From NCBI RefSeq assembly GCF_000003815.2, contig NC_049985.1, positions 4,024,267 through 4,088,266 of the forward strand: 64,000 nt of DNA, written 5' to 3'. Below the pieces are notes generated by a model, which saw only the letters and a program-made list of their open reading frames with translations, had not been told where the DNA came from and ran no database searches. A program made the position numbers and the translations under genes. Position 1 is the stretch's first letter. The number at the start of each line of letters is the position of its first letter. This document shows positions 8,189 through 56,600 of the stretch, piece after piece. Source of the stretch: Branchiostoma floridae (Eukaryota; Chordata; Leptocardii; Amphioxiformes; Branchiostomatidae).

Positions 8189-8812
8189 CGAACACCTCCG
8201 TCAAAAACAGCGCTTGTCAGACAGAACTGGCCGCCGCCGCTATTTAGCTGATAATGACGGCGGACTTTGGTTTAGCTTTTTTGGCCCTTAAATCCTCTCA
8301 AAACGGACCGACTTGAACATGCTATGCCTTCTTCGTTGAAGGCAACATTCACTGGCCATGGGTACAGTCGTTTGAAGGGGCGGATATCATGAGTTGAGGT
8401 GAGGGCATTATAATTCAGTCAAAGCGGAAGCGGTAGGCGCTCCATAGCATTACCTTGTTAGTTTCTGACATGCTGTATGCACGTGAAAATCAGTAACGTT
8501 ACATATATCTGTGACAGGGTTTCTACTGCGTTTGTTGCATGCATAACAGCTGCATGCATGCTCACGGCAGCAGCTTGGACACTCGTGGAGAGGGAGCCTG
8601 TACTACATGCCAACTAATAGGAAGTCTGCCAGTGCAGAGTCCCGTGTCTTATATTATACATACCCTGCTCTACACGTGCATCCTAACCACCAACAATGTA
8701 ATGCTATGCTGCGGCTCCCCCTCCAAAAAGCGAGTCTTCAACAAAGAATAGCATAGCATTTTTCATTGGCCATTTCTGTCTCACTAGGGCTGTTTTTGAC
8801 GGAGGTGTTTGA
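8189..8812. mobile_element. ~620-base terminal-inverted-repeat element
   Basis: The left end AACACCTCCGTCAAAAACAG (from 8191) is the exact inverse of the right end at about 8789-8810 (GCTGTTTTTGACGGAGGTGTT). No transposase ORF. Parts of the interior recur in inverted orientation at about 36450-36870 in a receptor kinase intron. Target duplication not clear. Confidence 0.7.
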
Positions 8813-31047: not shown

Positions 31048-31725
31048 ATGACTGGGGCCTGTTGGACTGTACAAACGGCTTTGATCGCCATATTTCTGTC
31101 TGCTACACTGGTGAGGAATGGACTTGGACAAACAGGTGAGGTGAACACAACAAGCGACGAAATAGCTGGGCAAACTTGTTCATTTGATTTTTAGTGTTTA
31201 ATGTTTAATGTTTCACAGCTCTTCTAGATTTGCTTGTTTCTAGCTTACCTGGCGCAACATAGGCTTGTTAGACCATCTTAATCAGAGATAGTTACTGCTT
31301 CTTTTACTTTGCTGCTTTTGTAGTTACTTTGCTCCTTGATATCCCTATATTGCAAGAAAGCTCTACTTTAAACAAATTTCGTACAATTTTACAAAGTGTT
31401 TTGGTTTATTGCCATAATATCGTCAACTTGGGTGTACTTTATCCATACAAACCAAGAATGTGTTATCAATAGAAGCTGCTCGTTTTTGACAACGCCTCAT
31501 GTATCTGCACTCCTCAGACATCCAAAATGGCGGCATCGCTTACGTCACAGAGGGTTTTAATGCCGAACTACTGTGGACCTACACACTTCCACCGGGTATC
31601 ACACCGCTGTTCGAGACATGGAGAAAGCTGCCTGACACTGGCATCGCCAGCAGGACCGGCAATACGTACATTTCCAAAGCCTACCAGGTAAGCTTCAGGA
31701 TGAGCAAATTTGTAAACAATGACTA

Positions 31726-31761
<36 letters not shown>

Positions 31762-34700
31762 TAATGAGAAAAGTCTTGAAAAGACAAAAGAATTTTTTCA
31801 AAGTTACTGTTTGGCATGCATACCATGTTCTGTGTGTTCAGTCATCTGCGCAACCTTCCTGTGATTACTTAGTCTTCATGATAAAGATAAACGTGTTGAT
31901 ATGTGGTTGTGAAGGAAGAATCTTATCATGTAATTCTTTAGGGCCGAATAGAGCTATTTGGGGAGTCAGGCATGCGGCTGAAAAACGTCACAACAGCTGA
32001 CTCCGGAATCTACCAGCTCTACATTGTGTCGTCAGATGGAACATCGCAGGCTTTGCTGTTGACCCTTCAAGGTTAGCATTCCTACTCTTTAAATCTCGAG
32101 AGAAAAACCATGATTCTTTATTTTTGTAGTCAACCTTTTTAGGGGACGCTGCCATTTTATTTAGAATCCGAATACGGAAAAAAGGTTACATTTTGCATTT
32201 TGGGGGAAAACTCGACACCAGCAAGTCTACCCGTGCACTTTGTACCAAGAGTCGCCATGATACATTTAGACATATAACGTTAGACGTTGTCATTTCGCTA
32301 GATATACTTTCTGCGACATGAAAGCTAAAAACAATATTTAACAAGTCGCATAGTAACGCCCCACACAAAGGTGGTCTTCATGCCCATTCAACCTGAACTG
32401 ACTCGGTTAAGGGACAACAAGCTACTCACTGTTACCGACTAGACTATCAGGTTATTTCTCAGTCCCCCAAGTAAGACTTCGTTGTGTGAAATATTCAGTG
32501 CACTTATTTGCCTCTGACAATGGGATTAACTTCTAACATTCTTGGCTAAGTTTCTACACCGTTACTCTACTCTTTAGTGGATGATTATGTTTCCCTCTAT
32601 ACATAGCATAGGGGAAACATGCTGTTTTTTGCGAGTGCGTTCTTTTTACCTTCGTCAGAAGGTTATGTTTTGAGCGTTTTTGTCTGTCTGTCTGTTTTTT
32701 TTTACTTCTTCTTCTTCTTCTGTCATGCTTGAACTCCGTTTTTCATAGTTTCAAGTTAAGAGCAAATAAACAGTGACACTGACAGATCATGTTACAGTTG
32801 CTGGGTAATTGCTATTCTTATTACTTGGATGACTAACCTTCATCGAAAAATAAAGAGATGTTAATGATCTTTTGCATGGTGACCAAGTATCATGTTTCCT
32901 TTAAGTAAATGGTTCTGCCTAATGGTACATAGTAGAAAACGTATACCCATAACATAGGGCGCTTATGTTAAAGTAAATACAGTGACATATGCCTTATGCT
33001 AATTAGGACCTAATTTTCATAATTAATGCTCAGTAGGACTATTTTCCTTACGGTAAATGCTATCAATGTCATATTGGAGGTGAAGGTAGCTTTAGAAAAG
33101 GTGCATACAACGGAATGTGTATAACACTAATAAGTACCTCATTTGAATAATTAATTCAGAAACTACATAATTCTTTTGTGGTAAATGGTGGAGATTTCCT
33201 TTTGGAGATGTATGTAGCTTTAGGAAAGGTGAATTCAATGGAATGTGGGCTATGATAATGTGGCCGTGGTGGGAAGCATTCATAATCAAACATAAGTAGA
33301 TGGTAATGTATGAATAATATTACATGATTATTTTATCACCAAAGTGTACTTGCTTCCTGTGACTTTTTCTCGTTGTTGCAGTCGTAGCTGTAACAACTCC
33401 AGAATCAACGACAACAACCCAATCAACTACACAAACATCGACTCAAACTACCACAGATTTTCCAACAATAACAACAACAGAATCAACGACAACAACACCG
33501 ACTACCACAGATTTTCCAACAACAACAATAGAAGCAACGACAACAACTCTGACTACCACAGATTTCCAAACAACAACAGAAGCAACGACAACAACTCTGA
33601 CTACCACAGATTTCCAAACAACAACAACAGAAGCAACGACAACAACTCTGACTACCACAGATTTCCAAACAACAACAACAGAAGCAACGACAACAACTCT
33701 GACTACCACAGATTTCCAAACAACAACAACAGAAGCAACGACAACAACTCTGGCTACCACAGACTTTCCAACAACAGATGCAATGACAACAACACTGGTT
33801 ATCACAGATTTTCCAACAACAGAAGCAAAGACAACACTGGCTACCACAGATGTTCCAACAACAACAACAGAAGCAATGAGAACAAGACTGGCTACCGTTG
33901 CTCCATGTGGAGGTACCCTGACCACTCCCCCTGGAGGTACTGTGACATCACCGAACTACCCCGATAACTACAACACCGATGAGATTTGTGAGTGGACGAT
34001 CACAGTGCCAGAAGGAAGCGTGGTTCTCCTCACGTTTGACAGCTTCCAACTTGATCTCTTTTATGACTATTTGGCCATCTACTATGGAGGCAGTGCTACA
34101 CTTTTGCGATGGTAATTTTGTTACAAAGTGGAGAAGTTTGGATAATACAGCAAATGGTATGATTTTTAGCTTCAAAATTCAAAGTTTCGATATTTTCTGT
34201 GAAACATTAAAAGAGGCAAGAACGACTTATTTTGACTTTAGGTTAACAGGTGTCAGGACGCCAGACCCCATCACCAGCACATCTAACCAGATGTTTGTGA
34301 GGTTTACATCTAATTATATTGGAACGAGACAGGGTTTCCAGCTCTCCTACACAGGTAAGGTGTTAGATTACAGGTAGCAAGTTTGCTTTGTTATAGTTAC
34401 CTTCACCTTCACTGGAAGGTTAGGTATAATTTGGATGTTATGGACATTTGTTAGGTTTTTACTGATCGAAATACTCTCTACAAGAATTTCTGCGCTACAA
34501 AATCCACAGAACATACCTCCCTACTGAAATCATTCAACAAAAATTCTGGCTACCACAGATTCTATCACAACAACAACAGAGGCAACGACAACAATACTAC
34601 ATTTAACTACCATTGCTCCATGTGGGGGTACCCTGATGGCTCCCCCTGCAGGGACTGTAACCCACCGCGACCGTGCGCCTTGTGAGTGGACCATCACCGT

Positions 34701-37700
34701 GGATTGGAATAAAGTGGTTCTTCTCACGTTCCACACCCTCCTTCTTAACTACCGTGAATCTTTGACCATATACGATGGAGACAGCGATAGAGCTCCAGAA
34801 TTGAAGAGGTAATTTCTTACAAATTAGAGAAGTTTGGTCGACGCTGCGAGTGATTTCTCGTATAATATGCTAGCTTCAGAGTTCAAAGCTTCTGTATACA
34901 TATTCTTTGTAACATAAACAGAGGTTTGACAGATTAATTTTGGTTTTCAGCTTTACAGGTGTCGTGAACAACGTGATACCAGACCCCATTACTGGTACAG
35001 ATAACCAGATGTTCGTGAAGTTTACATCTGTCTATACTGTCAATGGTCATACCACGTTTCAGTTCTCCTACTCAGCCACAGGTAAGGTAAATACAGGGAG
35101 CAAGTTTGCTTTGTTAACTTTGTCAATAGTTGACGTCTTTTTGTAGCATTTGTTTCCTTAAAGCTTTGAGACTTTATCAAGAAAGTCCATTATCAGTTTG
35201 ACAGATGGTAACGTTACACCATAACGGGGGGAATCCCAAGTCCGGTAACTGTTCTAAAGTTAATGCGCATGGCTTTTGTTATCGTACATTTTACTGGGAA
35301 CCCATCAAAAACCATTTAAGATCTTTTTAACAATCCTTTAAATGTGATTGAAGCTATACAGACATATATTTCATTTAACGGCAGCATTCCGAACTGTAGT
35401 TTGAAAGCGCGCGAAAGTATTGGCAGGTTTTTGACGTTCTAATACAAAAAGAGGGTCCAAACTTAAAGTTAACAACCAAGCCATCTCTGCACATTTTAAG
35501 CGTCCTATGCAGGCAGAATAACACTAAACTTGTTTAATACTATTTTTGTCACAAATAAGTGCTATATTTTGAATTACGCTACTTATCTAAATACGTTTAG
35601 TTACAAAGTTTACTTCTCACGGCGAAACCAACTTACTTACATACTCCCGCTCGAACCAATCCAGAGAACTTCCTCCAGTGCACTTGGTCCTCCATGGCCC
35701 TTTGTAGCTCTTTGGTATCATGCAGACTTGTGTCACTACGCCTGTCGCCAAAAATAAAAATGGCGAGACATTCGTTTACATCTGCCTGTGATTACACGTT
35801 TTCACTTTCGGCTTCTTTAATTTAATTCCCACTTCAACTCGTTTTTAACAGCAGAAACGACCACAGGATTTCTTTAGTCGGTAGGGATCGATTTTCTTGA
35901 ATGATTGGTGCTCTACTGACGGGTTGACTAACGTCATCGTGTTGAGCATCGCTCGGCTTCCTTCAAAGTTGTTTGGCAAAGATGGCGGGGATGACAGGGC
36001 CGTGAACATGCGGCATAATTTAGCTCCGATTATCCAACTATAAAAGCAAAGACACGGCATAGCTGTTCTTCTTGAGGAAGTCTTATAGATATCCTTCTTA
36101 TCTGTGGTGGTATCTTTTCACATTCGTATTTTACGATGAATGCATTTAAGAGTTTCCCGGGCCATGCTCTCGATAAGTTCGCTCGTCAGCATGCACGGAA
36201 GGCGTCAAACTTGTGTTTTTTTTCAGTTGTTGTCTATTAGGGCTTACCAACTTGGACACATACTCAGACTTTTCAGTTATTTACAACAAGGTTAAGTCCA
36301 TAATGAGTTGTACTTATCATGTGCAGACACTTATGCATATCTCCGCAAAAATGATTTTAAAAATCTTACCGGAGTTTGGACCCCTACTGGACTTTGGATC
36401 CCTCCCGTTTTTAAAACGCGGGACTCTGCACTAGTGGTCTTTGCAGTAGGGTCCTATAAAGTTGGCATGTTCCGGTACTAGCTCTCTCTCCACGAGTGCC
36501 CGAGCTCTGCTTTCCTCTTAATTTCGTTCTTCTCCTGGAAATGTATCTAACTGTCATGTATGCAACTCATGCAGTGGAGAACTAGTGGCACAGATATATG
36601 TATTCTCCTATACACGTGCACATGTCAGAAACCGGGCACTCTGCCCACCAATAAGGTATAATAGCTATGCGGTGCCTTCCGCCTTCGCTTTGACTGAAAT
36701 TCTGGCACTATTACTGCAACTATATCTGCCCCCTCTTTAAACGACTGTACTCCGTGGATGCAGCCTTCAACAAAGAAGGCATATTATTTTTCTTTGGCTC
36801 GTACTGAGAGGATTTCAGGGCCTTAAAAGCTAAACCAAAGTCAGTCGTTATTATCAATTATCATATAGCCAGGCGCCACGGACCAATCAGAAGGCCCCGT
36901 TCCACCTTGGGTATGACGCCGTAACACATAGATTCCGGCCAGGCCGGTCTGTATCCTCCTTCTGATTGGTCAGAATGAATCGACACCCTCACCGGTGTCG
37001 ATTTGCATCGACACCGACAGCAGTGTTGATGCAAATGATTTTAAGAATTGTGCAGTCCATAGTGCTAGGGATAGCGCATTTCATACTTTAATTTTCATTC
37101 TATAACTAAAAAAACGCTTCTCCAAATAATTTCGTTTTTTGTCTTGGTTTATCTAGTGTAAAATGTTTGCAAAGTTGTTTGCGGCTTAGCTGATTAAGTC
37201 TAGGAGGTATGATTGGATATAGTTAAAATGTATTTGTAGTTAAGTCATTATCTATCGAAATGTCGGTAAGATCTACTTATATTTCCAGGTTACGACATCA
37301 ACAGAAAATACATTTCTACTGATAGCATTCAACAACTATGTCAACTACAGATTTTCAGAAAACAACAACAACAGTAGCTACGACAACAACCACTTTGGAC
37401 TGTTGGACCCCTGGGTGCGGAGGTATCCTGACGGCTCCACCTGGAGGTACTGTGACATCACCGAACTACCCATATAACTACTGCGACGATGAGACCTGTG
37501 AGTGGACGATCACCGTGCCAGAGGGACGCGTGGTTCTTCTCACATTCAACAGCTTCCACCTTGAGGACGCCTATGACTATTTGTATATTTACGATGGAGG
37601 AAGTGCTAGAGCTACACCATTGCAGAGGTAATGTTATCATGAAGTAGTGAACTTTGGATAATGCAGTAAATGCGTATCGGTGAAATTTGTACCTTCAAAA

Positions 37701-40700
37701 TTCAAAGGTTCAATATTTTCTATGTAACATTAAAAGAGGCAAAAACGATTTACTTTGATTTCCAGGTTAACAGGTTATCACATGTATATAAACCCCATCA
37801 CCAGTACATCTAACAAGATGTTCGTGAGGTTTACATCTGACGGCAGTATCACGGAGCAGGGGTTCCTATTAGTATACACAGACACAGGTAAGGTGTTTAA
37901 TTACAGGAAACAAGTTGTTTTGGTTACCTTCGTCAATAGTTAGCGTGTATGTATGTTAGCATTTGTTTGAGCCCTTTAGATTTTATCAAGAAAATCCTTC
38001 AGTGGTTTGCCCAAGGGTACAGCATACCACTAATCTTCCTGCCTGGAATTCTCGACAGACAATTCTTACAAAGTGCAAAAACGTATTACATACATTACAT
38101 CCATCAAACATTTGTACGTTATTAGTAGCAGTAGTCCTGTTACATTGTTGTTGGGACTGGCACAGTCGAGATCATTTCAATTCCATTTAAACCTGGACTG
38201 TTCACTAAGTCTGCATTTGAAGAATTTCAAGGATTGTGAGGTCTATAGTGCTAGTGATAGCGTATTCCATACTTTAATGAGCTTATAACTGAAGGATTTT
38301 TTAAAAGAATTTTTCTTGCTTTACCCAATTGTGAAATGTTTGTATAGATGTTTGTGGTTTAGTATTATAGCCATAGAAGCCGGTATATTTGGATGTTAAG
38401 GGGATTTATATACATAATCTCTACAAGCATTTCCAGGTTACGAAATCTACAAAATACATCTTCCCACTGAAATAATGAAACAACAACTCTGTCTACCACA
38501 AATTTTGTCACAACAACAACAATAGCACCAACGACAACAATCCTGGCTACCACGCATTCAACAACAACAGAAGCAACGACACTTGCTGCCACTACAGATG
38601 TTTCAACAACGACAACAACAGAAGCAACGACAACAACCCTCGCTACCACCACAGATGTTCCAACAACAACAACAGACGCAACGACAACAGATCTGGCTAC
38701 CACGACACCGACACCCTGCACTATACTACTAGGTGTTGAGCGTTTCAGAATCTATCTTCCAGATAGTGTTCATAAACCCTTGCAGTTTCATATGCTAGGA
38801 TCAGATGTGACAGGTCATTCAGTGTAACAAATCGAGCTAAAGCCGGGTATGTTTCAAGCATAAACTGATGACAAGTAGTAAAGGTACTGGGTTCAAATCC
38901 GTAGCAAGCCCCAATGTTTTTTCATCAGTTGGCTCAGGCTAAAATTAGTACCTCGCTTCGGTAAGCTACGTACGGTATAAAGCTAGGCGTTACACCTCAG
39001 TGTGTTTTACCGATTGTGTGAAACAAGAGGAACGTGCACAATTTTGCAAGCCTACAAAGCTGGTGTGTGTGTGACAGAAATTTCGATCATTATGCCCTAT
39101 ATGTCTCTAATATCCATCGACAACATATCGTGAACAAGTCGATCGTGGTATTTTAAGATAGACCATTGGCATTTGTATCTCTTAAAGAGGAGACTGAATT
39201 TTTGTTCTTTCTTGAAACTTCCTGCAGGTGAGAACGATATTTACCTTCTTGACAAAGGCATCGCCGAGGTTGCCGCGGGCGAGGATGCGCAGCTGAATTG
39301 GACCTACAGCCTCCGTGTCGACAGTGCCATTCTCCTCGAGGACTGGAAGGATCCTGACGGAAACTACATCATGCGCCGGATAGGGGGTGTAGTTTTTGAA
39401 AACGAGGAGTACAAAGTAAGTGGTCTATGACATTAGTGTCCGTTTTCCCATTCTTTATTCAATTTACGGCATATGTGTGCTAATTTTACAGCTGCTTTGA
39501 ACGATTTGGAGTATGTTCGAAAATGTATTTTTTTTGGAAACGGACGCACGTGCGGATGCCATCCATATAATCAAATCAACTTCGCCTGACGTCGCCTCGA
39601 TGAGGGAAAGCATTCCTCCGAAGGTCGCAATAGGGCACCCGGTGGAATCATGAGGGTTGGACTTTTGCTGTATGAAGTTTATCACATTGCCTTCTCCCGT
39701 GTTATATAGGGACGAGTGTCTCTTATTGGGGATTCCAGTCTGTTGTTGAATGGAACAGGCCCAGAAGACGCAGGGAGTTACACTTTAACTGCTTACTTCT
39801 GCGATGTCTCTGAACATGAAGCGGAGAGACAACTCATCGTCCAGTGTAAGCTGTTGAAAATATTCCAGAGGAAACGAAAGAACAAACCAGGCAATGACGT
39901 GAAAGTGAATTTATGTGTTCGACTGCATCTGTTGTTATTGCCTGTTGGCATTGACAGGAAATGCCAAAACGACCGGGTCGATTTTTGCTTGTCTTTGCCT
40001 TTGTATTTGTCCATTGTCAACCTTCAAATACAGTGTATATTCTTAGATGTTGAGACGACCAACACTTCTCTTCCATTTTTTAAAGATGCTCCAAAGTTAC
40101 CACAAATCGAGGTGACGCCAGGCCTCATCTCAACAGAAGGCGACACAATGATTCTTCAGGCAACAGCCGACTGTGTCCCCCCTGCCACATACACGTGGAG
40201 CAGGCTGGACGGATCCCTCCCGACCAACGCTGTGGTGAACACCACGCTGGGAACCTTGACAATCACAGAAGCGACTGTGGAAGACTCCGGTGTATACACG
40301 GTGGTCGCCGAGAACTACTTGGGCAACTCGTCGGTCAAGAATATCACAGTTGAAGTTGGTAAGCACACTTTCTTAATGGCAGCCGCTCCAGACCCTTGCG
40401 AGAAAGCTTGTGTAAGCTCCTCGCAATTCAGCCCCTGGCTGCTAAGAGAGAGTAGCTGGGCCACCCAATAACTGTACGGTCACATTTCCAAACCGAGAGC
40501 GCGGCCGGGACATTATCGGAAAATAAAATAAAATTGTTGATTAAGGAAAATGAACAAGTCATGGTCATGGCTGTTGTTTTACGTTCTGTTTCTTTTGTTG
40601 TCTTATATTATATGTTTCGTTTGCGAAAGCTGCCTGGCCTGTGCCTGTGGGCCTGCTTTTCATACATGGAGGGGCGATTTTGGACTGCGGTGATCCAATC

Positions 40701-43700
40701 TTCTTTATAGGGAAATATGAGTGAAATATGCTGTATTTGCAATTGTTGAGTTTCTAGTTGATTGTAAAGGTTTCTAATCCCCTTAAATGATTCAAAATGA
40801 CACTATTTGTTCACAGGGCCTATCCCGATCATTGGTGAAGTAGCTTTTGTAGCTTCGACTGCAGTTATTGATGGTGGAGGACCAGCTGTAAGCACAGGTG
40901 GGCTTAATGGCTTCTTGTCATTATTTCGGCCGCGTAACCGGATGTACGATGTTGGTATGTATAGCTGGTAAACAGCTCTATTTCACAATAAGAATCAATT
41001 GCCGACGCCACGTGTTCAGATTTCGAAAATGAAAAAAAGAGCACATGAGCTTTTGTCTGCTAAGTAATCACCGTCTGGTATGAGCTCTTGCACACTTTCG
41101 AGTACTCATGCGCAGCGGCAGGAACTGTGGGTAATAATATATCAAAGTTGAATGCCACTGAGACATAATCAAAATATGCCTAAACATCCTTATGCAGATC
41201 GACAATGGTCGGTAAGAGGTCAGGGACTTTCACCTTTGACATATTACCCACAATTCATGTCCCTGCACATGCGCATTCGGAAGTGCGAAATAGCTTATTA
41301 CTGTCCACCAACGTTCCGGAAGTTTCTCTGCTGCGGTACTCATGGGTATGACTGGTGGCGGAAGCAATGTGGCTATGTTGGTGAGTTTGTCAGTATAGTC
41401 TGATTAAATGCCATTCCAGATTTAATGCACTTTCCTTTCTAAAGGTCAGCATATCACTCCGCGTCTGGTCAACCCACCTGGCCTGTTGACAACCCTGGAG
41501 ATTGTGCTGATTGCGCTGGGCTTGACTCTGCTCGTCACGGTTTTGCTGGTGGGAGGGCTGAGGTTCTGGTGAGTCAAGAAAAAACGAGCGCGCGCAGGGA
41601 GAGATGGGGGACGGTGGTACTTCCATCCGTTTATCTTAGGTAGGTAGCGTCGGGGGCTAGTAGTGGCCTCGATTCTTTAAATGGCCTTGATTTTTTTCCG
41701 TCTGTCTCCCCAAGACGAAGTTACATTTTTTACTCAATTTTCTACCCTTTTCTCTGGTACTTGTAGATATAGAATTTGTCTTTTGATGTCGAATCTGAAA
41801 CAGATCAACTTTAGTCAAATGATTTATAAATAATTATATGTATTATATGTATCTATTTGGTCCTACACATTTAACGCAGAGTCCTTTGAGCACATGTCTC
41901 TTGCGAGTGAAAGAGTGCTGTGAAACAGTAGACGTCAATAAACAGGAGCGAGGGAGGATACAGACTTCTGGTACTGATTGCACATTGCTAAAGTCATGTG
42001 TCTGTAATACAACCTGGCAGAAGTATTGATTCTTTTCCCGACAAAGGCCTGGATGACGTCTGAAACTTTTATGGTGGTGCTCATGGACGCCAGGGAAACC
42101 AATATAGGATATCGATTTTTCTATCGCAAATAAATAACTTTCCATACTTCAATCTTGTTGCAATGTTTGCCGCAGATCGCGTCTACCCGTTGGCAGAGCA
42201 GCCTCCTCCACCGGTCCCAGCCCGTCCACAGTTCCTGAAGTACGAAGTGGACAGACAGGATCTGGAGCTGGGGGAGCAGATCGGCAGGGGTGCCTTCGGT
42301 GTCGTCTATAAAGCGGTTCTGAAGAGAACTGCAGCCGGACTGGTTACAAACAGAACCGTAGTGGTCAAGACTGTTCAAGGTAAGTCTCAGTTTTATCCAA
42401 TACAACAATATAAACCCAACATTTTGTGTAGGCTTTGCAGCCGCTTTTAGGCCAGTTGACACACACGTGGCTCCAGTGAAAGGTGTCCGAAGACTTACTA
42501 TCTAGTTTGTACCTTTTTTTGAATTTTATTTTCAGACCAAATATGATTACCTCGTGCTCTATGCTCTGGTGTTTAAAACAAAAGATTTGAAATTTGTAAC
42601 GGGGCATATGCCACATAATACCATTCACGTTTTTGGCATACACCACTTTGACATTCTTTTTGGGAGATGTTTATGCTATTTTGATACCAAACGTATATAC
42701 AGTGGAATCCGCTTCTTTGTATAGCTGATTTGTCCGGGCATTTTATTCTCCTAAGTAGTCGATTAACCCTCGGAGTTTGCACTGTACATGCTGCAGATGA
42801 CGCTAGTGTAGATAGAAAATACCACATTGCGTTTGATGCAATGTTTGATATTGTAAAACGTGTTTCTGCAAGGACATGGACTTGACCATTTTAATAACGT
42901 ATGTTCAGATGGCGCCGGTGTAGAGGAAAGGGTGACATTTGTCCGTGAGATCGAGACGACCATCAACCTGGGGGAGCACAAGAACCTGCTGGGGCTGGTC
43001 GGCTGCTGCACGCTGGCGAACCCGCCCTACCTGGTCACGGAGTACCTGCCGTACGGAGACCTCAAGAACTTCCTGCTCAAGTGTCGGCAGGTTTGTTTGT
43101 TTGTTTATGTGTTTGTTTGATCTGGATGGCTGCTGCACTCTAGAAAACTCACCCTACCTGGTCACGGAGTACGGAATAAGTTACATCATTGTGAAGTTCA
43201 AGCTCCCTTAATTGAATAGCGTAGACATCAGACATATTCTGTAGCACTAATTATTAGTTTTAGTGCAACGTATCCGTTATAATTTCTGTGAAATTAATAT
43301 CATATATTGAAGACATTGGTGATAGTAAAAACTTTGTATTTGAGAAATCTGAGGTTTTGTACTGAAATGACTATAACGTACTGACATCTGCAATTCATCT
43401 ACCCAAAGCCAGAGGCTGATGAGCTGAACAGCGTGTATCACATGACTGATCTGAAGATGTACCAGATCGGACGGCAGATAGCAAATGGCATGGTGAGTGC
43501 TGTAATATGGTATTCAAGCAAGTACATTTGTTTACTTCTCCCTACTGTTGTGGTAAATATTGGTTATGCTGTAACGCATCATGGAGTAGGTGGAGTTTAG
43601 TCATTTATATGTTTGAATCATCGAAATTCTGGACAATGTTTAGCTCTTATCTTTTTCATACATTGGTTTTATACCTACGGCGTGGGTTTTTATATCCAAT

Positions 43701-46286
43701 GCTGGAAGCAGGAAGAAGGTTGCGTTTAGAGAAAAGTGGTAAATATTTTTGAACCATCGAACTACTTTTCACCTCTTTGCTGAGCTATCTTTCTGTCATT
43801 GTTTTTGTACCAGGTTTTTATATCCGATGCCGGGTACGTACATGGAGACCTGGCGGCCCGGAACGTGCTGGTGGGGAAGAACGTTCTGGTGAAGATCGCA
43901 GACTTCGGGCTGGCCACAGACGTCTACGAGCGAGGCTACCAGCGGCAGGACGCGGAGCAGAAGATCCCCTTGAGGTGGATGGCGCCGGAAAGGCTTCTGA
44001 GGGAGGGCAGGTACACGAGCAAGAGTGACGTGTGAGTACCTCGGTTTGACCTTGATGTCTTAGGTGGACAACTAAGGGACATTTCTCGTGAGAAACGAAG
44101 TGTCATTAATGACAATGACAATGACAATGACAATGAAGTTTATTGCATATTCATGCCCCATTGGGGCTAAATGCAGATAATAAGAGGCGAGTTGCATATA
44201 ACAATATTCCTAACGAATGGAAGTAAAAGACGGAGAGAGCCGCTTGAATAATCAAATACACGTGATTCTGGACCAACCGGTAGCGGGTTTGAATCCTTCC
44301 TTTCCTGGCAAGGACGAAACTACTTATTACAAGTGACTCAACATTCTTCCCTCTATTCCAGGTCTATCTCTGTGTATATTATCTGGCATATTGTGTTCCT
44401 GTTTCTATTTGTTTCACAACATTCTGACAGATTAATGTTCTTGCAATTTTCAATATTGGCTAATATGGGATTTGGTATAAAAATAGTCTCGAGGGTAATG
44501 GTCAGCAGGCACAGTCATTAACAATGTGTATTTCTCCAACATCTTGATTCATGCATGTGGTCCTGTAATGTGAGCTACATTGCAGAATATTTGTACATCT
44601 TCCACCTACACAGCTGGTCATTTGGCGTGGTGCTGTACGAGATCGCGACGCTAGGGGACGTTCCTTACCCGAGTCTGGGCAGCACCCTGCTGGAGGAACT
44701 CCGCAGAGGACGGCGGGAGCAGCGCCCACAGCGGTGTCCCCGGGAACTGTATGTACAGACTTTCGTTTATTGCATGTAACACACGAAAATGGGCTACGAA
44801 CCTCTTCCAAATTATTGTAGAAATGCTCACAGATACTAAGATCTAGAGTTCTTGCTACAAAAACATGTTGCATAAACGTAAGTAGCGATTGGCACGTGTT
44901 TTACGTCGCCAATATTCTTGTATGTATAAATTTGCTGAAAGGCGTTTTGCTCCCCTTAACACTTTCTACAGTAACTGTATATTTTGCTGATGAATATAAG
45001 AATAGATTTTAGGGTAAAAGTTGACCTAATTATAAACGGTTGACTTTGCATGCCACGATAGTTTTGAATTGGTCTGAATAGATCTGATTCTGGGCTAGTA
45101 AATACAAGTGACAGCAGAAATGTGACAGTGTCTACACTTGTCACATGCCGCAACGGCTAAATGTATTGTCCACACTTGTCAGTGTTACCAATAAATATGA
45201 AATATTATATATACCAGTAGGTCTTCATCACTTTATACAAACACCACATTCTAAGGTGATATGGCGATAGCTTCGTTCTTACCGACATGTGGAAAGGCAA
45301 CATTTTAACTAAAGATATAACTCTTCAATATGTTAATTATTGGCAGGTACAACATGATGTTAAGCTGCTGGCAGTGGGAAGAGTTCAACCGGCCTGACTT
45401 CCAGCAGCTGTACCTGGAGCTGGACCGACTCGTGGAGACCAACGCTGACGTCAGCTACCTCAAGCTCTCTTCCGCTCCTTCCGGCAACGAGAAGAGTTCA
45501 GGGGACATCTTCACAGCCAGCCTCGCGTCTTGCCACCATAGTCTGGAAACCCAGGGCACCTCGGAAACTTCTGAGGCATCAGATCATCTTCAGGAAAGCA
45601 GAGCTGAGACTCAACCATTTGAGGAGGTCTTGGGATCTAAGGAACCGCAAGACGTTGCCATTGTTGCGGAAAATTCTGAGACAGCTCGCGACCAGATTTT
45701 AACAAACAGATGCGTTCCCTACAGCTTTCCACTCAAAAATAAATGGGTAGAGGAAAATCAGGGTAACTCTACCTCATCCTCTGTTAAGGTAGAGTTCGTT
45801 GATCCTCAAACGTCCGCGGGGAGATTCTCGACAGATCGAGTCAACATCGGGACAGATACGTGCGTTTACTACAAAGTTCCGCCCAGACCCAATCACAAGA
45901 AAGGTAATCCCAAAGAAGCTGAATCTTCCCAACTGCCTGATGAAGATGGCAGTGAATCCAATGAAGGGAAAGATGTAGCCAATGGTCAGGCAGACGATTC
46001 TGAAACGGATCATGACCAGATTTCGACGACCAAAGGCGCCCCCTACAAGTTTCTACACAAAAACAAATGGCTGGAGGAAAGTCAGGACAACTCTGACTTA
46101 TATTCTGCTGAGGTCCAGTTTGTCGAATCTCGACGGTCGACGAAGACACCGTTGACAGATCGCGCCAGGATCGGGGTGGATTCGTACGTTCATTACAAAG
46201 TGCCGACCAAAAACAATCACAGGAAACAGCAACAGGATAGTCCTGATGTCATCGATCAGATGGAAGTTGTAGATTTAGACCTTTAA
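31048..46286 (+). CDS. Receptor tyrosine kinase with Ig-like and CUB-like ectodomain
   Basis: Start ATG is in a strong context (GCCACCATGA). Exons: 31048-31135 signal peptide; 31518-31687 + 31942-32071 Ig-like 1; 33382-34111 Thr-rich stalk + CUB1a; 34242-34354 CUB1b; 34559-34808 + 34951-35081 CUB2; 37351-37627 + 37766-37887 CUB3; 38526-38732 Thr-rich stalk 2; 39228-39415 + 39710-39845 Ig-like 2; 40086-40358 Ig-like 3 (I-set); 40817-40897 linker; 41445-41568 transmembrane; kinase 42176-42379, 42909-43090, 43409-43492, 43814-44031, 44614-44748, 45347-46286. Kinase motifs: GRGAFGVV, VVVK, HGDLAARN, DFGLA, IPLRWMAPE, DVWSFGVVLYE, CWQWEEFNRPDF. Extracellular junctions are mostly phase 1, so domains are shuffle-ready. 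The TM-to-kinase junction does not join in phase, implying one unseen small exon. Ligand and subfamily unknown; the tyrosine-kinase class (WMAPE, HxDLAARN) is certain. Confidence 0.85.
31729..31760 (+). repeat. (TA)n microsatellite
   Basis: Dinucleotide run just after the donor of the Ig-like 1a exon. Confidence 0.9.
32072..33381 (+). other. Intron of the receptor kinase gene
   Basis: No exon seen. Contains two loosely similar stretches around 33030-33110 and 33140-33250 (TTGGAGRTGWAKGTAGCTTTAG), suggesting a local duplication. Confidence 0.5.
33430..33870 (+). repeat. ~51-base coding minisatellite of the Thr-rich stalk
   Basis: Eight to nine units of the type TTTTEATTTTLTTTDFQ within one exon, encoding a mucin-like, probably O-glycosylated stalk. 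Each unit carries the string ACCACAG/AT. Confidence 0.9.
35082..37350 (+). other. Long intron between CUB2 and CUB3 exons
   Basis: No exon supported. Includes an inverted partial relative of the 8189-8812 element (about 36450-36870), a small palindrome with ACCAATCAGAAGG arms (about 36889-36972), and a stretch (37040-37340) homologous to 38210-38500, part of the duplicated CUB unit. Confidence 0.55.
38860..38960 (+). mobile_element. tRNA-like SINE fragment
   Basis: B-box-like GGGTTCAAATCC at about 38889 within a tRNA-like context; no complete cloverleaf. A similar GGGTTTGAATCC occurs near 44286. Confidence 0.35.
39483..39581 (-). mobile_element. Fragment of the GGCCATGTTGATTTGATT element (inverted left end)
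   Basis: Reverse complement of the left ~100 bases of copies 1-3: TTTTACAGCTGCTTTG at the start and CATCCATATAATCAAATCAA at the end. The outermost GGCC bases are lost. Confidence 0.7.
43119..43173 (+). pseudogene. Relic duplicate of a kinase exon segment in the following intron
   Basis: Reads GCCTLENSPYLVTEYG in one frame, matching GCCTLANPPYLVTEYL of the exon ending at 43090. It lies 29 bases after that exon's donor, separated by a TTTG-rich stretch. Confidence 0.8.
44106..44138 (+). repeat. (AATGAC)n microsatellite
   Basis: Five to six hexanucleotide units in a kinase intron. Confidence 0.9.
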
Positions 46287-47222
46287 TTGTACCGAGACAG
46301 AGGAAAATTCCTTTTTTTTTACTTATCGAGTGGTTATTTCTCCACCGATGGATTACTTACCTACTGTTTAGTAAGCGTTTTAAGTTTCATTTGTATTCGT
46401 ATTCTGTAGTCTGTATTTGACTATATGAAAGCTAAGTCAAAGTTACAGTTTGGTAAGGTGACTCAAGTCAACTATGTAACCTCTTGTTGGCAATCTTTAT
46501 TATCGGTGATAATGTAAGATACAGGGTACTTGTTAATTCATGTCGGACAAGTCGTTTTTTCTTGGTAGAGTCCTTTTAATTTTTTCTAGTTATGTCTGAT
46601 CAATTAAACCAACATAAATTCGTTTTGTACATGGCCACGCTACTAGACTTGATCCGGAAGGATAGAAGAATACATTTGTATGTGTAGTTTGTTCAAGTAG
46701 TTCATTTCTAATAGAAACAGTATAGATGCCGATTTTGGAATACGGCTTGTATAAATATCCTAGTTCTGGTAGTTGTTGCAATGTGTAGTCAAAGTTCTAC
46801 TAACTTCAGGTACATTTCAATTTCATGCCTGACTAGTTCATGTAGGTAGATGACTCGTTTTCCGTTCATCGTTTTAATAATTGCATTCGTTTGTTTGGCA
46901 TTCAGTGTATATTATGTAATGAAATATTTTTTTTCGGTTTGAATAAGTCTATCAATAACAAGATAAAACTCAATCGTTATCCGTCATAGTTGTATTAAAA
47001 GGAGTCGTGCATTTTACGAGAGCATTTACATAGGTACTGGTAGAGGCTTTATTGTAATGATCTCTATTTGTTTGAGACGTTTTTACAATAAAGTTGATCA
47101 CATTGATTTATCAGTTGATGGAACCGATTTGTTTAAGTATGTAGATAACCATAGTTATTTGTTGATATAATGCACCGTGATCATCTACGCTACAAAGAAG
47201 ACAATTTTGTTTGCAACAATTA
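46287..47222 (+). other. Receptor kinase 3' untranslated region
   Basis: No coding signal. AATAAA at 47087-47092 is the likely polyadenylation signal, about 800 bases after the stop. An inverted-repeat element begins shortly after. Confidence 0.6.
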
Positions 47223-48027
47223 GGCCATGTTGATTTGATTATATGGACGCTCGCACCAATTTTCGGCCATTTCCAAAAAAAAAAGCTTTTGACCACACAG
47301 TAAATTGTGCAAAGCTGCTGTAAAATGAACACATATATGCAGTAGATGGAAAAAAAAGTATCAGAAAACATATAACTAATGCCATAGAATGCCAAAATAA
47401 ATCTAAAGTCAAAGAATAAGATGTGAAAAAAAATCTATTGTTGGTAGGGGTAGGTACCAGTACAGAAAATTTAGGTACAGGTTCCGTTCAGGTCCAGAGG
47501 ATCATTTCCAGATCCGGACCTGAACCTGATTGTGGAAACTTGCTATAGTCAAAAACAATGATAATTGGTCAATTTTGCTACAAAGGAATCTGGCGTTTTA
47601 AAATCCCATCTCCAAGTAATCAAGTTTCTGTACCTTTGACTGTAGAAACTTGGTGCAAATGACTATAAACTCTACTCGACTTCGCTCTTGTTGTCTTCTT
47701 AGCCCGGTAAGACCCCAAACGCTTGCTGACATAGTGTGTCCATTTTCTAATTGGCGAAACCGGTTCCACTGATTTTTTTCAGGTCTTTTTTTTATGATTG
47801 GTCCAAGAAGAAGAACGTTTTGTACCTATACGATGTACTGGTCCCTACACCTAACTGTTGGCATATCATACTATGTGTTTTTAGTCCTATGTTTAACCTT
47901 CCTGACCACTTAGATTTCATACTGAAGTCAACTTTTTTTTTTGGCCAAACTTTTTTTTTATTCGCTCGCTCGCATCAGTTCTGGAGTTCCCAGAGGATGT
48001 CATCCATATAATCAAATCAACATGGCC
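47223..48027. mobile_element. Intact ~805-base inverted-repeat element, copy 3 (PIF/Harbinger-like)
   Basis: Same terminal repeats as copy 2, flanked by TTA at 47220-47222 and 48028-48030. The left end lacks the ATGACATCC segment that copies 1 and 2 carry after the first 26 bases. Confidence 0.85.
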
Positions 48028-48469
48028 TTAAAAGGAAAACAAAATAAAACCATACCGTTTTCTGATCTGGTTTACAACGAGATGGCACAGGTTATTGCTT
48101 TTAGGCAATATGTTACTAATAGAAGCTTCGCAGGAAAGTAAACAGCTGGATAGTGTTAGCATAAAAATATCCACCATGCCTGTATTAATCGAATGTAATA
48201 TAACTTTATTGCACAACAATTGTACGAGGTACAAAGTATGGCATCTACATAACTACAGTGCTATAACTTAACTTAGGGCTTATCTAACTAATACAGGAGT
48301 TGTAGTATGGGATAAGTTTCTTACAATCATTGGAGGCTTTTACAATCATTTGGGGAATTTCTAATGTCAAAACCTTCTTTGATATATTAATCGAATAAAC
48401 CCCGACTGAGCGAGAATAACGCGACAATTGTGTCATAACTAGGAGATCATGTTTGACCCAGGACCACTC

Positions 48470-48632: not shown

Positions 48633-50370
48633 GTAAGACAGCATGAAGGACATGTTGTATTTTATGCTAAAACTTTTAAAAGTTTCGTAGCCAGAAAAGC
48701 GAACGTTTCGTGATTGAATGTTGCAATTTATTGAAGTTATATGGCACCTCCTGTTCACTGATGCTCAAAATCTCATGCTTTTGTCGTTTGTAGCGGTTGC
48801 AAAATAAACCAGAACTTAGAGAAGGAAATTTCATTGACGATTTTTCTGCTTCTGCACCAAAAAGGGACAAAGGGTAGTAAAACTTTGGACACATTGGGCG
48901 GTCATGGAAGAATGTTGCAAAGGAGAACGTACCAGTACGGGGTCTGTTAGGGGTTTACTTGGGTTTCATCGAAAATACTTTTGAGATTATTCATTCAAAG
49001 AAGACGGAAACGAAAAGTGTGCTTAGACTTATTCAAATAGCAGTCACTGTTATCTATCGTTAATGTGCGAGAGAGAAAAAACACATACGGGTGTGAAGGG
49101 CGCAGGTCGATTTTTGTAAGGTATACCCCAAGTCCCTCCGTCCGCCCATAGACTGGAAACCTCCCGCCAGACCAATATCTGTTGTTCTCAATGGCCTGTT
49201 CCAGATGTCTTCCATTACATCATACCGAGTAGTTGATATTTAAACATGTCTTTACAAATGTTAGGTACCATAAATTCTGCATACCCCTATCTTCGGACGG
49301 ATTTTTAATTACCTCAGAATGCAGGAGTGAGGCATGCTTGTTTTTATCCACAAAGTTGTTTTTAATAGAACTTTGAGAAAATTTTTATATGAACAATTCT
49401 ATGATAGAATTTACGTCCGAAATGAGGGACCCTCCGTTACGTAGTACCATACCCGCGGCGCTTGGTTGGTCCCGCTTACACAAGACAAGTGGATCACGGA
49501 AATGGCGTCCGAGCAAATTACATCTAATCTGCGTGTAGCTCTATACATGTCGGAAAGGGTTAAATAAATTGGGTGACAGGCAGCACATAATGCTAAAGCG
49601 GGCCCGACGTTAGTGTAACAAAGAAATCTAACTCCTTAACGGTTCACATGATGGACAGGCGGGCAGGCTTTGAAGTGTGTCGGGCGGCATGGCCGACAAT
49701 CAGAACAAGGATTAACGAGAAATCTGAAGGCATATTGAACGCATTAAACGAGCTGCATTAAATTTAAACGTTTCTTCCTCATTGCATGCCTAAAGAAATA
49801 AATCTATACAAACACGAAAAGGGTCCTCTGAGAAAATGATATTGATTCTTACGGTTTGAAATATTTCTTGACTTTGCACTAAATTGACTGGTATCACGGA
49901 AGATTTGCCGCATACTTAGAGGATAACATATGTTGTGCAGAGGTCGTCATGTCAGGTTCTGGCGTCAGAATTCTTGGCAACTGTGGAACGTGTAAGTAAT
50001 AGATTTGCGGCAATTTTTAAGATTTCAATAATAGGCCATTTATGTTAAACAAAATATCGTCTTTGGTATACCAGGCAATAGCTCTTCATTTTTTATGTGC
50101 GTTGTCTGTAAAAATAGACAATTGAGTACATGCATGACTGTATAACTTACAGAAACAAATGTCATTAAATGACCATAATTATTTAGGTACTGGCAGAGGT
50201 CCAGTCCTTTACCTGAACCACTGTACATATGCTAGTACCTGAAAGTTGTTTTCGTAGTACTATGTGTTACCAAGGGATGATTGAGGTGGGAAAGATGTGG
50301 GTTAGCTGATGAATGTATCCACTCTACGTATACAAATCCACCAATGTTTGTTCACCTTTTATCTACAGAA
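48633..50370 (+). other. Probable intron of zinc-finger gene
   Basis: No coding exon or clear repeat recognised in this stretch. Confidence 0.4.
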
Positions 50371-50390
50371 GTTGCATCACATCGAAGAAG

Positions 50391-50831
50391 ATGGCATCAG
50401 CAAGTACGAGTAACGCACAGGGTTTAGAGGCCGGAAGAAGAAAGTCGAAAAGGGAATCTTATTTCAGATCTAAGAGAGAAGGAAAGCTCTACAGGTGTGA
50501 GGAGTGCAGCAGGCAGTTCAGTGGGCTGGGAAGTCTGAAGATTCACATGCGGAGTCACACCGGGGAGAAACCTTACAGATGTGAGGAGTGCAGCAGGCAG
50601 TTTACTCAGCTGGGTAATCTGAAGACTCACATCCGGACTCATACAGGGGAGAAACCCTACAAGTGTGAGGAGTGCAGCAGGCAGTTTAGTGAGCTGGGTC
50701 ACTTGAAGAGGCACATGCGGACTCACACGGGTGAGAAGCCGTACGAGTGTGACTACTGTAGCAGGCAGTTCAGTGACCTGAGTAATATGAAGAAACACAT
50801 GCGGAGTCACAGGAAAGCTTTACAGATGTGA
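50391..50831 (+). CDS. C2H2 zinc-finger protein, four fingers
   Basis: 146-residue ORF in one coding exon, starting [20 protein letters not shown]. Four near-identical C2H2 fingers (C-x2-C-x12-H-x3-H) of the form [20 protein letters not shown], joined by classic HTGEKPY linkers; the fourth reads [20 protein letters not shown]. The predicted role is sequence-specific nucleic-acid binding in the nucleus. No KRAB, SCAN or BTB domain is present. An acceptor at 50371 and the ATG context suggest a 5' non-coding exon. The stop falls where a fifth finger would begin: reading one base shifted gives [14 protein letters not shown], so the gene looks shortened by a frameshift. Confidence 0.85.
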
Positions 50832-53626: not shown

Positions 53627-56600
53627 TTATCTGTGCCATGTAACGTTATAGGAATTACCTGGAAAAGCCTGGCATATGAAGCGGTACGTCCAGTCGCATT
53701 TTGCGTCATTCCACGTGTCTTTCTGTGCGGGGTAGTAAACGCAATCTTCGTCGCCCCTCAAGCTGTCCGGTTGTCCCGGACTCCAGGAGGTGTATGCCCC
53801 AAGTGCAGAGCCATCTACCCACTCGAAGCTTCCCTCTTCGCGCCGATCGTACAGGCCGATCCAGAAGGCTCTCTCGCCGCTCAAGGAGACCAGGAAGGCG
53901 TTGGTCTCAGCGTCTCGGGGCATGGCGAGTGTGCCACCGTCTTCACCACAGGTCGCCGCCGCACCGCTGAAGGTTTTCTCTGTGTTAAAGAGCTTGTAGC
54001 ATACTCCTCTCCACATTGTGTACCCCTCAGGGCAGGATTCTGCTAAACACGTTTTGCATAAACATCGTTAACAGACAACTCTAATGTGTACACATGGGGC
54101 ATATTGATAAAGCAGCATTATACATAATTTAGGCACTAAGAAATCATTAGATACTTCATCAAAATACCGTACCTCCCAGTCCCCATTAGGTTGTGTGGTT
54201 TTATTTTATACCAGAATAATGAGTAAATGATATGAGTCAGTGAAACACAACTTTCTAAACGTTAACTTAACAACATACTTATACTAGTACACAATGAGTA
54301 TGATAAAGGATGCAATGTGATAAGGGATGCATTGTCGCATATATAACTTGTTTTAAACTAATATAGTCTTATGAACCTGCTCAGTATGACATTACAAATA
54401 GTGCACATAGCAACTTAAATCAAACTTGCCTGGGGACTTGCTCATCCCGTGAAGACACTGCTCCAATGCTGCGGTTCGGCTTCGCTCCTTGTCCAGATCA
54501 CGCTTCAGGGCGTCAACAGTGGCGGACATGTCATCTTGGGCGCGCTTTAAGGCGTCAACAGTGGTGGTAAGGTTGCACAAGTCGTCTTGGTCGCGCTTCA
54601 AGGCTTCAACAGTGGTGGCCAGTTTGCGCATGTCGTCTTGGTCGCACTTCAAGACGTCAACAGTGGTGGACATGTTGCCTTGGTCACGCTTTAAGACGTC
54701 AACAGTGGTGGTAAGGTTGCACAAGTCGTCTTGGTCGCACTTCAAGACGTCAACAGTGGCGGTCAGTTTGCGCATGTCGTCTTGGTCGCGCTTTAAAGCA
54801 TCAACAGTGGTGGTCAGTTGAGTTATTTCCTTGAGACGAACGTTAGAATACAAAAGTTAAGAAATCGTTAAGGGAAAACAGCAGCATGTTATGTCTTGAT
54901 TACCCCCTAAGAATAAAAGAAGAAACAGAGATTGCTTGAAAATATTGTGTTTACCTCTTTATTGATGAACGTCAGAGGGGCGATTCCCACAGCGACAAGG
55001 CTTAGCAGCACGGCAATGCCGGCGGCCAAACAGCTTTGGTGGGAGCGGATGAAGCTACAGATAGCACGGTGGCTGCTTGCTCCAACCGGATACGTGCGGT
55101 CTATGAGAAATATATGTCTGTCTTAGGTTTGGAGTAGGAAAATAAGTAATACTAAGTAAGGCCACAGCAAGTAAATTTTAAAGATGACATCAGCGCGCAC
55201 ATTAATTTTCGCCTGATTTCAGAAGAAAAAAAAACAGAATTTTTCTTCTGCAGGGATGGTCAACATGACGATAAAGTACAACCCTACTCTTATAACACTA
55301 CAAAAGAAATTCACGCGAATAGCCTCTGCCCCTGACTTTCTCTCACATACAGCCCTTCTATTTCTAAAAAAAAAAGAGAATATTGAATATGCATGATATC
55401 AATAACTTGAAAATTAGTATATTCACGTTTAGCCTCCTTTCCAGCAAACTCCCCGATATACAGTATTTGAAAATTTTCGAAACCCTAGATCACCTGTACA
55501 CAACTATCATACCATGCAAAGAAATCAATTATTTCTCTCTTCCGCACATCATTAGCGCAGTTCTCCGTAAAATACAGATGTGTCACAATATGGAACAGCC
55601 TCCAGACAAATATACTAAAAACTTCTTCTTTTCTTACGTTTAAAATTGCCCTGAAAACCCATCTCATAAACCACCCTAGCCCCTTATAGTAGTCTCGTAT
55701 ATATTGTCAGTTATTATCTCAATTTCGATTATTATTATTATTACCTCCATGAAATGTCATGGAATGGAGGTTATATTTTCTGTTATGTGTCTCTGTCTGT
55801 GTAGATGATTACTCAAGAACGGCTGGATGGATTGGTTTCATACTTGTTGTGTTGGTGGGGTGTGATGAAAGCTCGAATCGATGAGATCTTGGGAGCCGTA
55901 TCTGTCGTTATAATCGATGTAATAATATCAGAAATCACCCCTATATTTGAGATATATTGGTACAGGCATCATGGTTTCCCTCTTTGTTAATCACCTTATC
56001 TCCAAGCAGGTGGTGAGGTGATTTGTTTCGCCAGTGATAGCCATGAACATATGTTTTTTTAGATCAGTTGACAACAACTGTTTGGGGGAAACGATAGCCT
56101 CGACTCAAGAACGGCAGGGTGGATTGGTTTCATTATTAGTGTGTTGGTGGAGTGTGATGATAGCTGGAATTGATTAGATTTTGGGCCTCGTATCTGTCGA
56201 TATAATCGATGTAAAAATATAAGAAATCACCCCTATATCTGCGATATATTGGAACAGGCATCGTGGTTTCCCTCTTTGTTAATCACCTTATCTCCAAGAT
56301 AGCCATGAACATAAGTTTTTTTGGATCAGTTGACAACAACTGTTGGGGGGAAACGATAGCCTCGACTCAAGAACGGCAGGGTGGATTGGTTTCATTATTA
56401 GTGTGTTGGTGGAGTGTGATGATAGCTGGAATTGATTAGATTTTGGGCCTCGTATCTGTCGATATAATCGATGTAATAATATACAAAATCACCCCTATAT
56501 CTGTGATATATTGGAACAGGCATCGTGGTTTCCCTCTTTGTTAATCACCTTATCTCCAAGCAGGTGGTGAGGTGATTTGTTTCGCCAGTGATAGCCATGA

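Follow-up and report, generated by a model that had tools for sequence, protein, structure and literature searches.

A stretch of 64,000 nucleotides from the lancelet Branchiostoma floridae (assembly GCF_000003815.2, contig NC_049985.1, positions 4,024,267 to 4,088,266; hereafter the window) contains, on its plus strand between positions 31048 and 46286, what we read with a probability of roughly 65% as one gene for a single-pass receptor tyrosine kinase, the assembled copy of which carries either an error or a kinase-removing allele. The product would begin with a signal peptide and a V-type immunoglobulin (Ig) domain, continue with three units made of a threonine-rich (Thr-rich) stretch and a CUB domain, a fourth Thr-rich exon, a second V-type Ig domain and an I-set Ig domain, and pass through a stalk and a transmembrane helix to a basic juxtamembrane segment, a tyrosine kinase and a tail with duplicated tyrosine motifs. 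An in-frame TGA immediately past the transmembrane segment splits the two halves in the assembled copy, where it would be an assembly error or mark an allele making a kinase-less membrane form.

We read the region from 30.7 to 46.6 kb and rebuilt 21 exons (E1 to E21), with borders set at splice sites that were scored by a simple consensus table of our own and no trained model. The original prediction, drawn from the sequence alone, had described a receptor tyrosine kinase with an Ig domain, three CUB domains and two further Ig domains, encoded by one chain of phase-compatible exons. The rebuilt exons and a domain search bear out its modules, their order, the strand and the extent. The single chain holds at 19 of the 20 exon junctions: E1 to E15 form one phase series from the start codon at 31048 through the transmembrane exon (14/14 junctions), and E16 to E21 form a second unbroken series of 587 residues that stops at 46286 (5/5), but the junction from the transmembrane exon to the first kinase exon is broken in the assembled sequence. 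As expected of a receptor tyrosine kinase, a signal peptide is followed by extracellular domains and there is one dominant transmembrane helix; in 19-residue hydropathy windows, values above 1.6 start at residue 4 (the signal peptide), at 938 (one window) and at 976-992 (the dominant segment, maximum 2.77). In Pfam, all three CUB domains passed the curated cut-off, as did the I-set Ig domain and the kinase, whereas both V-type Ig domains fell below theirs. All eight extracellular modules (E2-E3, E4-E5, E6-E7, E8-E9, E10, E11-E12, E13 and E14) have phase 1 on both sides, and these symmetrical phases support the earlier proposal that the receptor was built by phase 1 exon shuffling.

The broken junction depends on the choice between two donors of E15. 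Donor 41568 (GTGAGT) is strong, with a score of 6.1, but leaves phase 2 where E16 requires phase 1, and splicing from it to the acceptor at 42176 ends the protein at once (RF-stop). Donor 41639 (score 4.6) restores phase 1, but the extension takes in the TGA at 41570-41572, and the frame then reads ...GGLRFW-stop-VKKKRARAGRDGGRWYFHPFIL before entering E16 at DRVYPLAEQ. Behind the stop lies the basic run VKKKRARAGR, and a basic run is the expected look of a juxtamembrane segment. The two strands of the window together have 6549 stop trinucleotides. Six of them have at least six Lys or Arg in the next 10 codons and 45 have a phase-1 donor scoring at least 4.6; the only one with both is this TGA, and the sequence behind it looks like a lost exon end. 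A direct route free of stops uses an acceptor at 42108, which scores -7.7 (28th percentile of the AGs in 31.0-46.3 kb). Seventeen phase-correct, stop-free candidates for an exon linking the transmembrane helix to the kinase were also considered and rejected, all of them having poor splice sites (best combined score -5.9). The well-scored route from the ectodomain to the kinase crosses the TGA, and the stop-free routes have poor splice sites.

We also scanned 28.0-42.1 kb for first exons, keeping those whose hydrophobic leader averaged more than 2.0 across 11 residues and whose donor scored over 2. The scan returned four rows from two start codons, and only the row at 31048 has a phase-1 donor, the kind that an Ig or CUB exon requires; under these filters, a second signal-peptide exon with such a donor was rejected. 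This sole phase-1 leader exon, taken together with the in-phase juxtamembrane sequence behind the TGA, makes one gene the better reading. The TGA may have come from misassembly, may be a null allele or may be fixed, and the copy as assembled would most simply yield a kinase-less membrane protein only. Three runs of 100 N (5282-5381, 10709-10808 and 13505-13604) mark the window as a gapped scaffold, in which assembly errors are possible.

Three other accounts of the junction were weighed. The gene could be intact and the TGA spliced out, from donor 41568 either to acceptor 42108, which would give 1616 residues, or by way of a small exon with poorly scored sites. The strength of the donor and the frame left open by acceptor 42108 agree with this account, but it retains only a small chance given the low scores of that acceptor and of the best of the 17 linking exons, and given the hydrophobic juxtamembrane segment (ISIFLSQINNFPYFNLVAMFAA) that this route produces, which overlaps with the tract belonging to the ordinary acceptor 42176. 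We consider it distinctly unlikely that the region holds two genes, one for a membrane adhesion protein (E1 to E15) that terminates at the TGA and one for a separate tyrosine kinase beginning at E16 or before. Besides the TGA itself, this division is favored by two hexamers resembling poly(A) signals (41937 and 42129), by an ATG closely upstream of E16 with the frame open from 42064, and by two reports according to which odd domain combinations in lancelet gene models are often mistaken (PMC6071037; PMC4967905). It does not sit well with the basic juxtamembrane sequence and the donor in phase behind the TGA, with the lack of any further signal-peptide-like exon with a phase-1 donor in the scanned 28.0-42.1 kb under the filters used, or with the quality of acceptor 42176 (91st percentile), which a first exon would not need. 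Very improbable, finally, is a dual product: with a genuine, fixed TGA, the locus would make mostly a membrane receptor devoid of kinase, as a decoy or for adhesion, and small amounts of full-length kinase by read-through or alternative splicing. Both splice choices from E15 to 42176 do stop right past the transmembrane helix (RFW-stop or RF-stop) and the kinase frame is clean for 587 residues, but a recent null allele or an error accounts equally well for the clean kinase.

Several observations weigh against the single receptor gene that we favor. Read literally, the assembled sequence encodes no receptor kinase, owing to the TGA, and the hexamers named above, of a kind found 16 times across 31.0-47.5 kb, lie between the transmembrane exon and the kinase. 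The cut-offs of the stop scan were picked after the TGA site had been seen, so the joint count is indicative; at looser settings it was 1 (at least five Lys or Arg, donor at least 4), 8 (four and 3) and 12 (four and 2) of 6549, and the counts of 8 and 12 exceed the product of the two separate rates. Acceptor quality is mediocre at E6, E8 and E18 (68th-73rd percentile) and poor at E10 (score -7.2, 32nd percentile of AGs). In the kinase, the Lys, the alpha-C Glu, DFG and APE are kept and the Arg of HRD is replaced by Gly (HGD), so that kinase activity is not assured.

Table 1 Exons and features of the putative receptor gene (positions are those of the window).
Feature	Position	Strand	Phase or evidence
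E1: start codon in a good context (gccaccATGa), signal peptide MTGACWTVQTALIAIFLSATLVRNGLGQ	31048..31135	+	phase 0 to 1
E2 (31518-31687) and E3 (31942-32071): V-type Ig-like domain 1, no Cys, phase-0 intron inside	31518..32071	+	V-set E 0.039
E4 (33382-34111) and E5 (34242-34354): Thr-rich stretch and CUB domain 1	33382..34354	+	CUB E 1.6e-25
E6 (34559-34808) and E7 (34951-35081): short Thr-rich stretch and CUB domain 2	34559..35081	+	CUB E 1.3e-10
E8 (37351-37627) and E9 (37766-37887): short Thr-rich stretch and CUB domain 3	37351..37887	+	CUB E 8.5e-25
E10: Thr-rich exon, weak acceptor and donor, inclusion uncertain	38526..38732	+	splice scores, repeat alignment
E11 (39228-39415) and E12 (39710-39845): V-type Ig-like domain 2, one unpaired Cys	39228..39845	+	V-set E 0.013
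E13: single-exon I-set Ig domain	40086..40358	+	phase 1-1; Ig_3 E 6.2e-12, I-set E 1.8e-9
E14: membrane-proximal stalk	40817..40897	+	phase 1-1; exon rebuild
E15: transmembrane exon, donor 41568 or donor 41639	41445..41639	+	splice scan, hydropathy
In-frame TGA immediately past transmembrane segment (...GGLRFW-stop-VKKKRARAGR...)	41570..41572	+	translation
E16: juxtamembrane, glycine-rich loop (GRGAFG), beta3 Lys	42176..42379	+	motifs, Pfam
E17: alpha-C Glu, LGEHKN loop, hinge	42909..43090	+	motifs, Pfam
E18: short kinase insert and next helix	43409..43492	+	exon rebuild
E19: catalytic loop HGDLAARN, DFG, activation loop, APE	43814..44031	+	motifs, Pfam
E20: C-lobe WSFG region	44614..44748	+	exon rebuild
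E21: kinase end, C-terminal tail, stop codon	45347..46286	+	exon rebuild, repeat alignment

The kinase matched Pfam PK_Tyr_Ser-Thr with an E-value of 1.7e-78, and we call it an FGFR-like receptor-type kinase whose family position the tree leaves unsettled. Its search against PDB sequences matched 903 at 1e-20; among the best 60 of these, FGFR2 and FGFR3 (207 and 206 bits) ranked next below a tandem EGFR construct, the 249 bits of which are the sum of two copies of about 123 bits each. Pairwise identity was 39.5% to FGFR2 and FGFR3 and 31.6-37.2% to the 11 other kinases tried. A kinase phylogeny was run on 14 rows; the lancelet kinase has a long branch (2.51) without fixed placement and is not shown with the FGFRs, and a broader set that includes VEGFR2, KIT, RET and TIE2 is present as a branch supported at only 62/45. 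Eleven groupings were asked of these rows, ten by the approximately unbiased (AU) test and one that was already a branch. Grouping with VEGFR2+KIT, RET, EPHA2 or SRC was rejected (AU p under 0.05); grouping with FGFR2+3 (p-AU 0.085), INSR, TIE2, MUSK+TRKA (0.32), MET or EGFR was not; the tree allows an FGFR clade and fixes no family. According to passages of a holozoan kinome paper (PMC8662651), the FPVR kinase subgroup has a conserved brake Asn in the hinge region. A candidate for it is the Asn of LGEHKN, which lines up with that in the HKN of FGFR2; MUSK, too, has an Asn at this place. The intron following E17 contains at 43122-43172 a 51-bp, 84% copy of part of this exon (42995-43045), reading DGCCTLENSPYLVTEY; an exon duplication remnant and an unused alternative exon are candidate readings of this copy.

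Thr makes up 24% of the first 1006 residues, with mucin-like Thr-rich linkers between the modules. In E4 the Thr-rich part consists of 9.1 tandem copies of a 51-bp repeat (33447-33896), so the length of this stretch may vary. Aligned with one another, the Thr-CUB units are 74.6% (1 vs 3, 606 columns), 67.8% (1 vs 2, 603 columns) and 66.3% (2 vs 3, 735 columns) similar, and judged by these alignments the three are tandem genomic duplicates, introns included. E10 is probably a remnant of a fourth unit, namely its Thr-rich beginning with the CUB domain lost, because the region upstream of it matches that upstream of E8 (66.4% over 363 columns). CUB2 is without seven residues around SPNYP. Its nonsynonymous divergence (dN) is close to the synonymous one (dS), with dN and dS of 0.40 and 0.51 for CUB1/CUB2 and 0.42 and 0.41 for CUB2/CUB3, unlike the CUB1/CUB3 pair (0.22 and 0.47). 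Judged by eye, the first Cys pair is the only one in CUB1 and CUB2; in CUB3 two further Cys lie near the start, and the places where the second pair usually sits are without Cys. The long intron that separates E7 from E8 has parts (36412-36856) matching 8249-8651 on the other strand at 68-71%, as a dispersed repeat.

The two V-type Ig domains scored 14.6 (Ig1) and 16.1 bits (Ig2) against a Pfam V-set cut-off of 26. They resemble each other (39.5% over 43 residues with a tblastn E-value of 2e-4; 31% identity overall), and both are interrupted by a phase-0 intron at the matching place, between YQ and GR in Ig1 and between YK and GR in Ig2. The usual Cys pair is missing from both, and the domain of E13 also has a single Cys (by eye). 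A search with a joint Ig1+Ig2 profile found 130 sequences at E up to 1, and among the best 60 of these the N-domains of CEACAMs came first, led by CEACAM6 (whole-chain E 3.2e-6, best single stretch 3.9e-4). This match, over some 40% of the domain (positions 61-104 of the 108 in the profile), lies in the half with GR...NVTxxDxGxYxL. CD2 and CD48 (weaker than CEACAM), pIgR, DCC and JAML were also matched, and since pIgR, DCC, JAML and CD2 are found, the signal is possibly a generic Ig one. We regard these comparisons as good but not conclusive evidence that Ig1 and Ig2 are Ig domains of the V type that lack the canonical disulphide. A repeat (39424-39593), probably a mobile element, lies in the intron separating E11 from E12 and has whole or partial copies at 1-181, 15807-15989, 16666-16699, 47222-47388 and 47995-48028 (alignments of 34-183 columns, 73-91% identity).

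The C-terminal tail contains an internal duplication (45635-45902 vs 45956-46226, 70.5% over 271 columns), each repeat having PYxF...KNKW and YKVP motifs (dN 0.41, dS 0.63). Three of its seven tyrosines are in YxxP motifs (YSFP, YKVP and YKVP), two of them in the duplicated repeats. YxxP is the consensus of the CRK/CRKL SH2 domain and is already recognised by a choanoflagellate homologue (PMC5043372). In the single receptor that we favor, the Ig and CUB domains on mucin-like stalks would bind a cell-borne or matrix partner, the receptors would cluster, the kinase would trans-phosphorylate the activation loop and the tail, and the pYxxP sites of the tail would recruit Crk-type SH2 adaptors.

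Elsewhere in the window, tblastn with Ig, CUB, transmembrane, kinase and tail queries (E up to 5) gave matches beyond the locus only at E 0.6 or worse, and paralogous copies there were rejected on this basis; an Rfam search gave no matches. On the minus strand, a C-type lectin domain (53627-54067; Pfam Lectin_C E 6.2e-23) has a heptad-like repeat upstream of it (54392-54856), and the two look like a stalked C-type lectin gene. The plus strand encodes four C2H2 zinc fingers in one open frame beginning with ATG (50313-50831).

We know of no vertebrate receptor kinase with the domain order of this receptor, which agrees with what the original prediction said of the ectodomain. Neither the listings from searches of open papers, some of them limited to the first 20 entries, nor passages of PMC6071037, PMC4967905, PMC5043372, PMC8662651, PMC7286890 and PMC6993872 showed a CUB domain in the ectodomain of a receptor kinase; lancelet protein sets and the survey of amphioxus kinases by D'Aniello et al. 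2008 were outside this search, and the survey may list the gene. The main text of the holozoan kinome paper has no word starting with CUB, and passages of it describe wide shuffling of extracellular domains in these kinases (PMC8662651). Banyai, Patthy and colleagues attribute differences in domain architecture between lancelet orthologues to gene-prediction errors, such errors often lying behind odd lancelet architectures, and agreement between lancelets being no proof (PMC6071037; PMC4967905). The receptor bears on whether unusual lancelet architectures are real. If transcripts confirm it, a receptor kinase would have gained its adhesion modules and CUB domains through the shuffling of phase 1-1 exons, after which units were duplicated internally. 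Intermediate steps would then be visible in the intron-bearing duplicates of the CUB unit, in a fourth unit seemingly without its CUB domain and in a fast-diverging CUB2. If the TGA is a real allele, one codon would turn signaling off and leave the adhesive part on the membrane. A fuller version, in which CEACAM-like Ig, neuropilin- or cubilin-like CUB and FGFR-like kinase domains share one chain and a segregating stop leaves a kinase-less decoy in some animals, is unlikely.

Among known systems, the FGFRs share with the lancelet receptor an I-set Ig domain adjoining the membrane and a short kinase insert. The [IL]GxHxN loop (LGEHKN here, IGKHKN in FGFR2) is found in the FGFR2 and FGFR3 rows and also in those of VEGFR2, KIT and TIE2. 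The FGFR ectodomain consists of three Ig domains with an acid box; here CUB, Thr-rich and V-type Ig modules are found instead, and the FGFRs are without CUB domains, mucin-like modules, V-type Ig domains free of a Cys pair and HGD. MUSK, with a 36% identical kinase, and ROR likewise combine Ig domains with a non-Ig module on one receptor kinase, this module being Frizzled-like or a kringle, not CUB. The canonical disulphide is absent from CEACAM N-domains too, but the likeness to CEACAM is confined to the V-type Ig domain: in CEACAMs a V-type N domain is followed by C2-type Ig domains and there is no kinase, so that the lancelet chain, with its kinase and different architecture, falls outside that family. 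A profile built from the three CUB domains matches cubilin (E 1.3e-58, four repeats), PCPE-1 and neuropilin-2. Unlike the lancelet receptor, cubilin, PCPE-1 and the neuropilins are without a kinase, and the neuropilins are described as separate co-receptors (PMC6387129).

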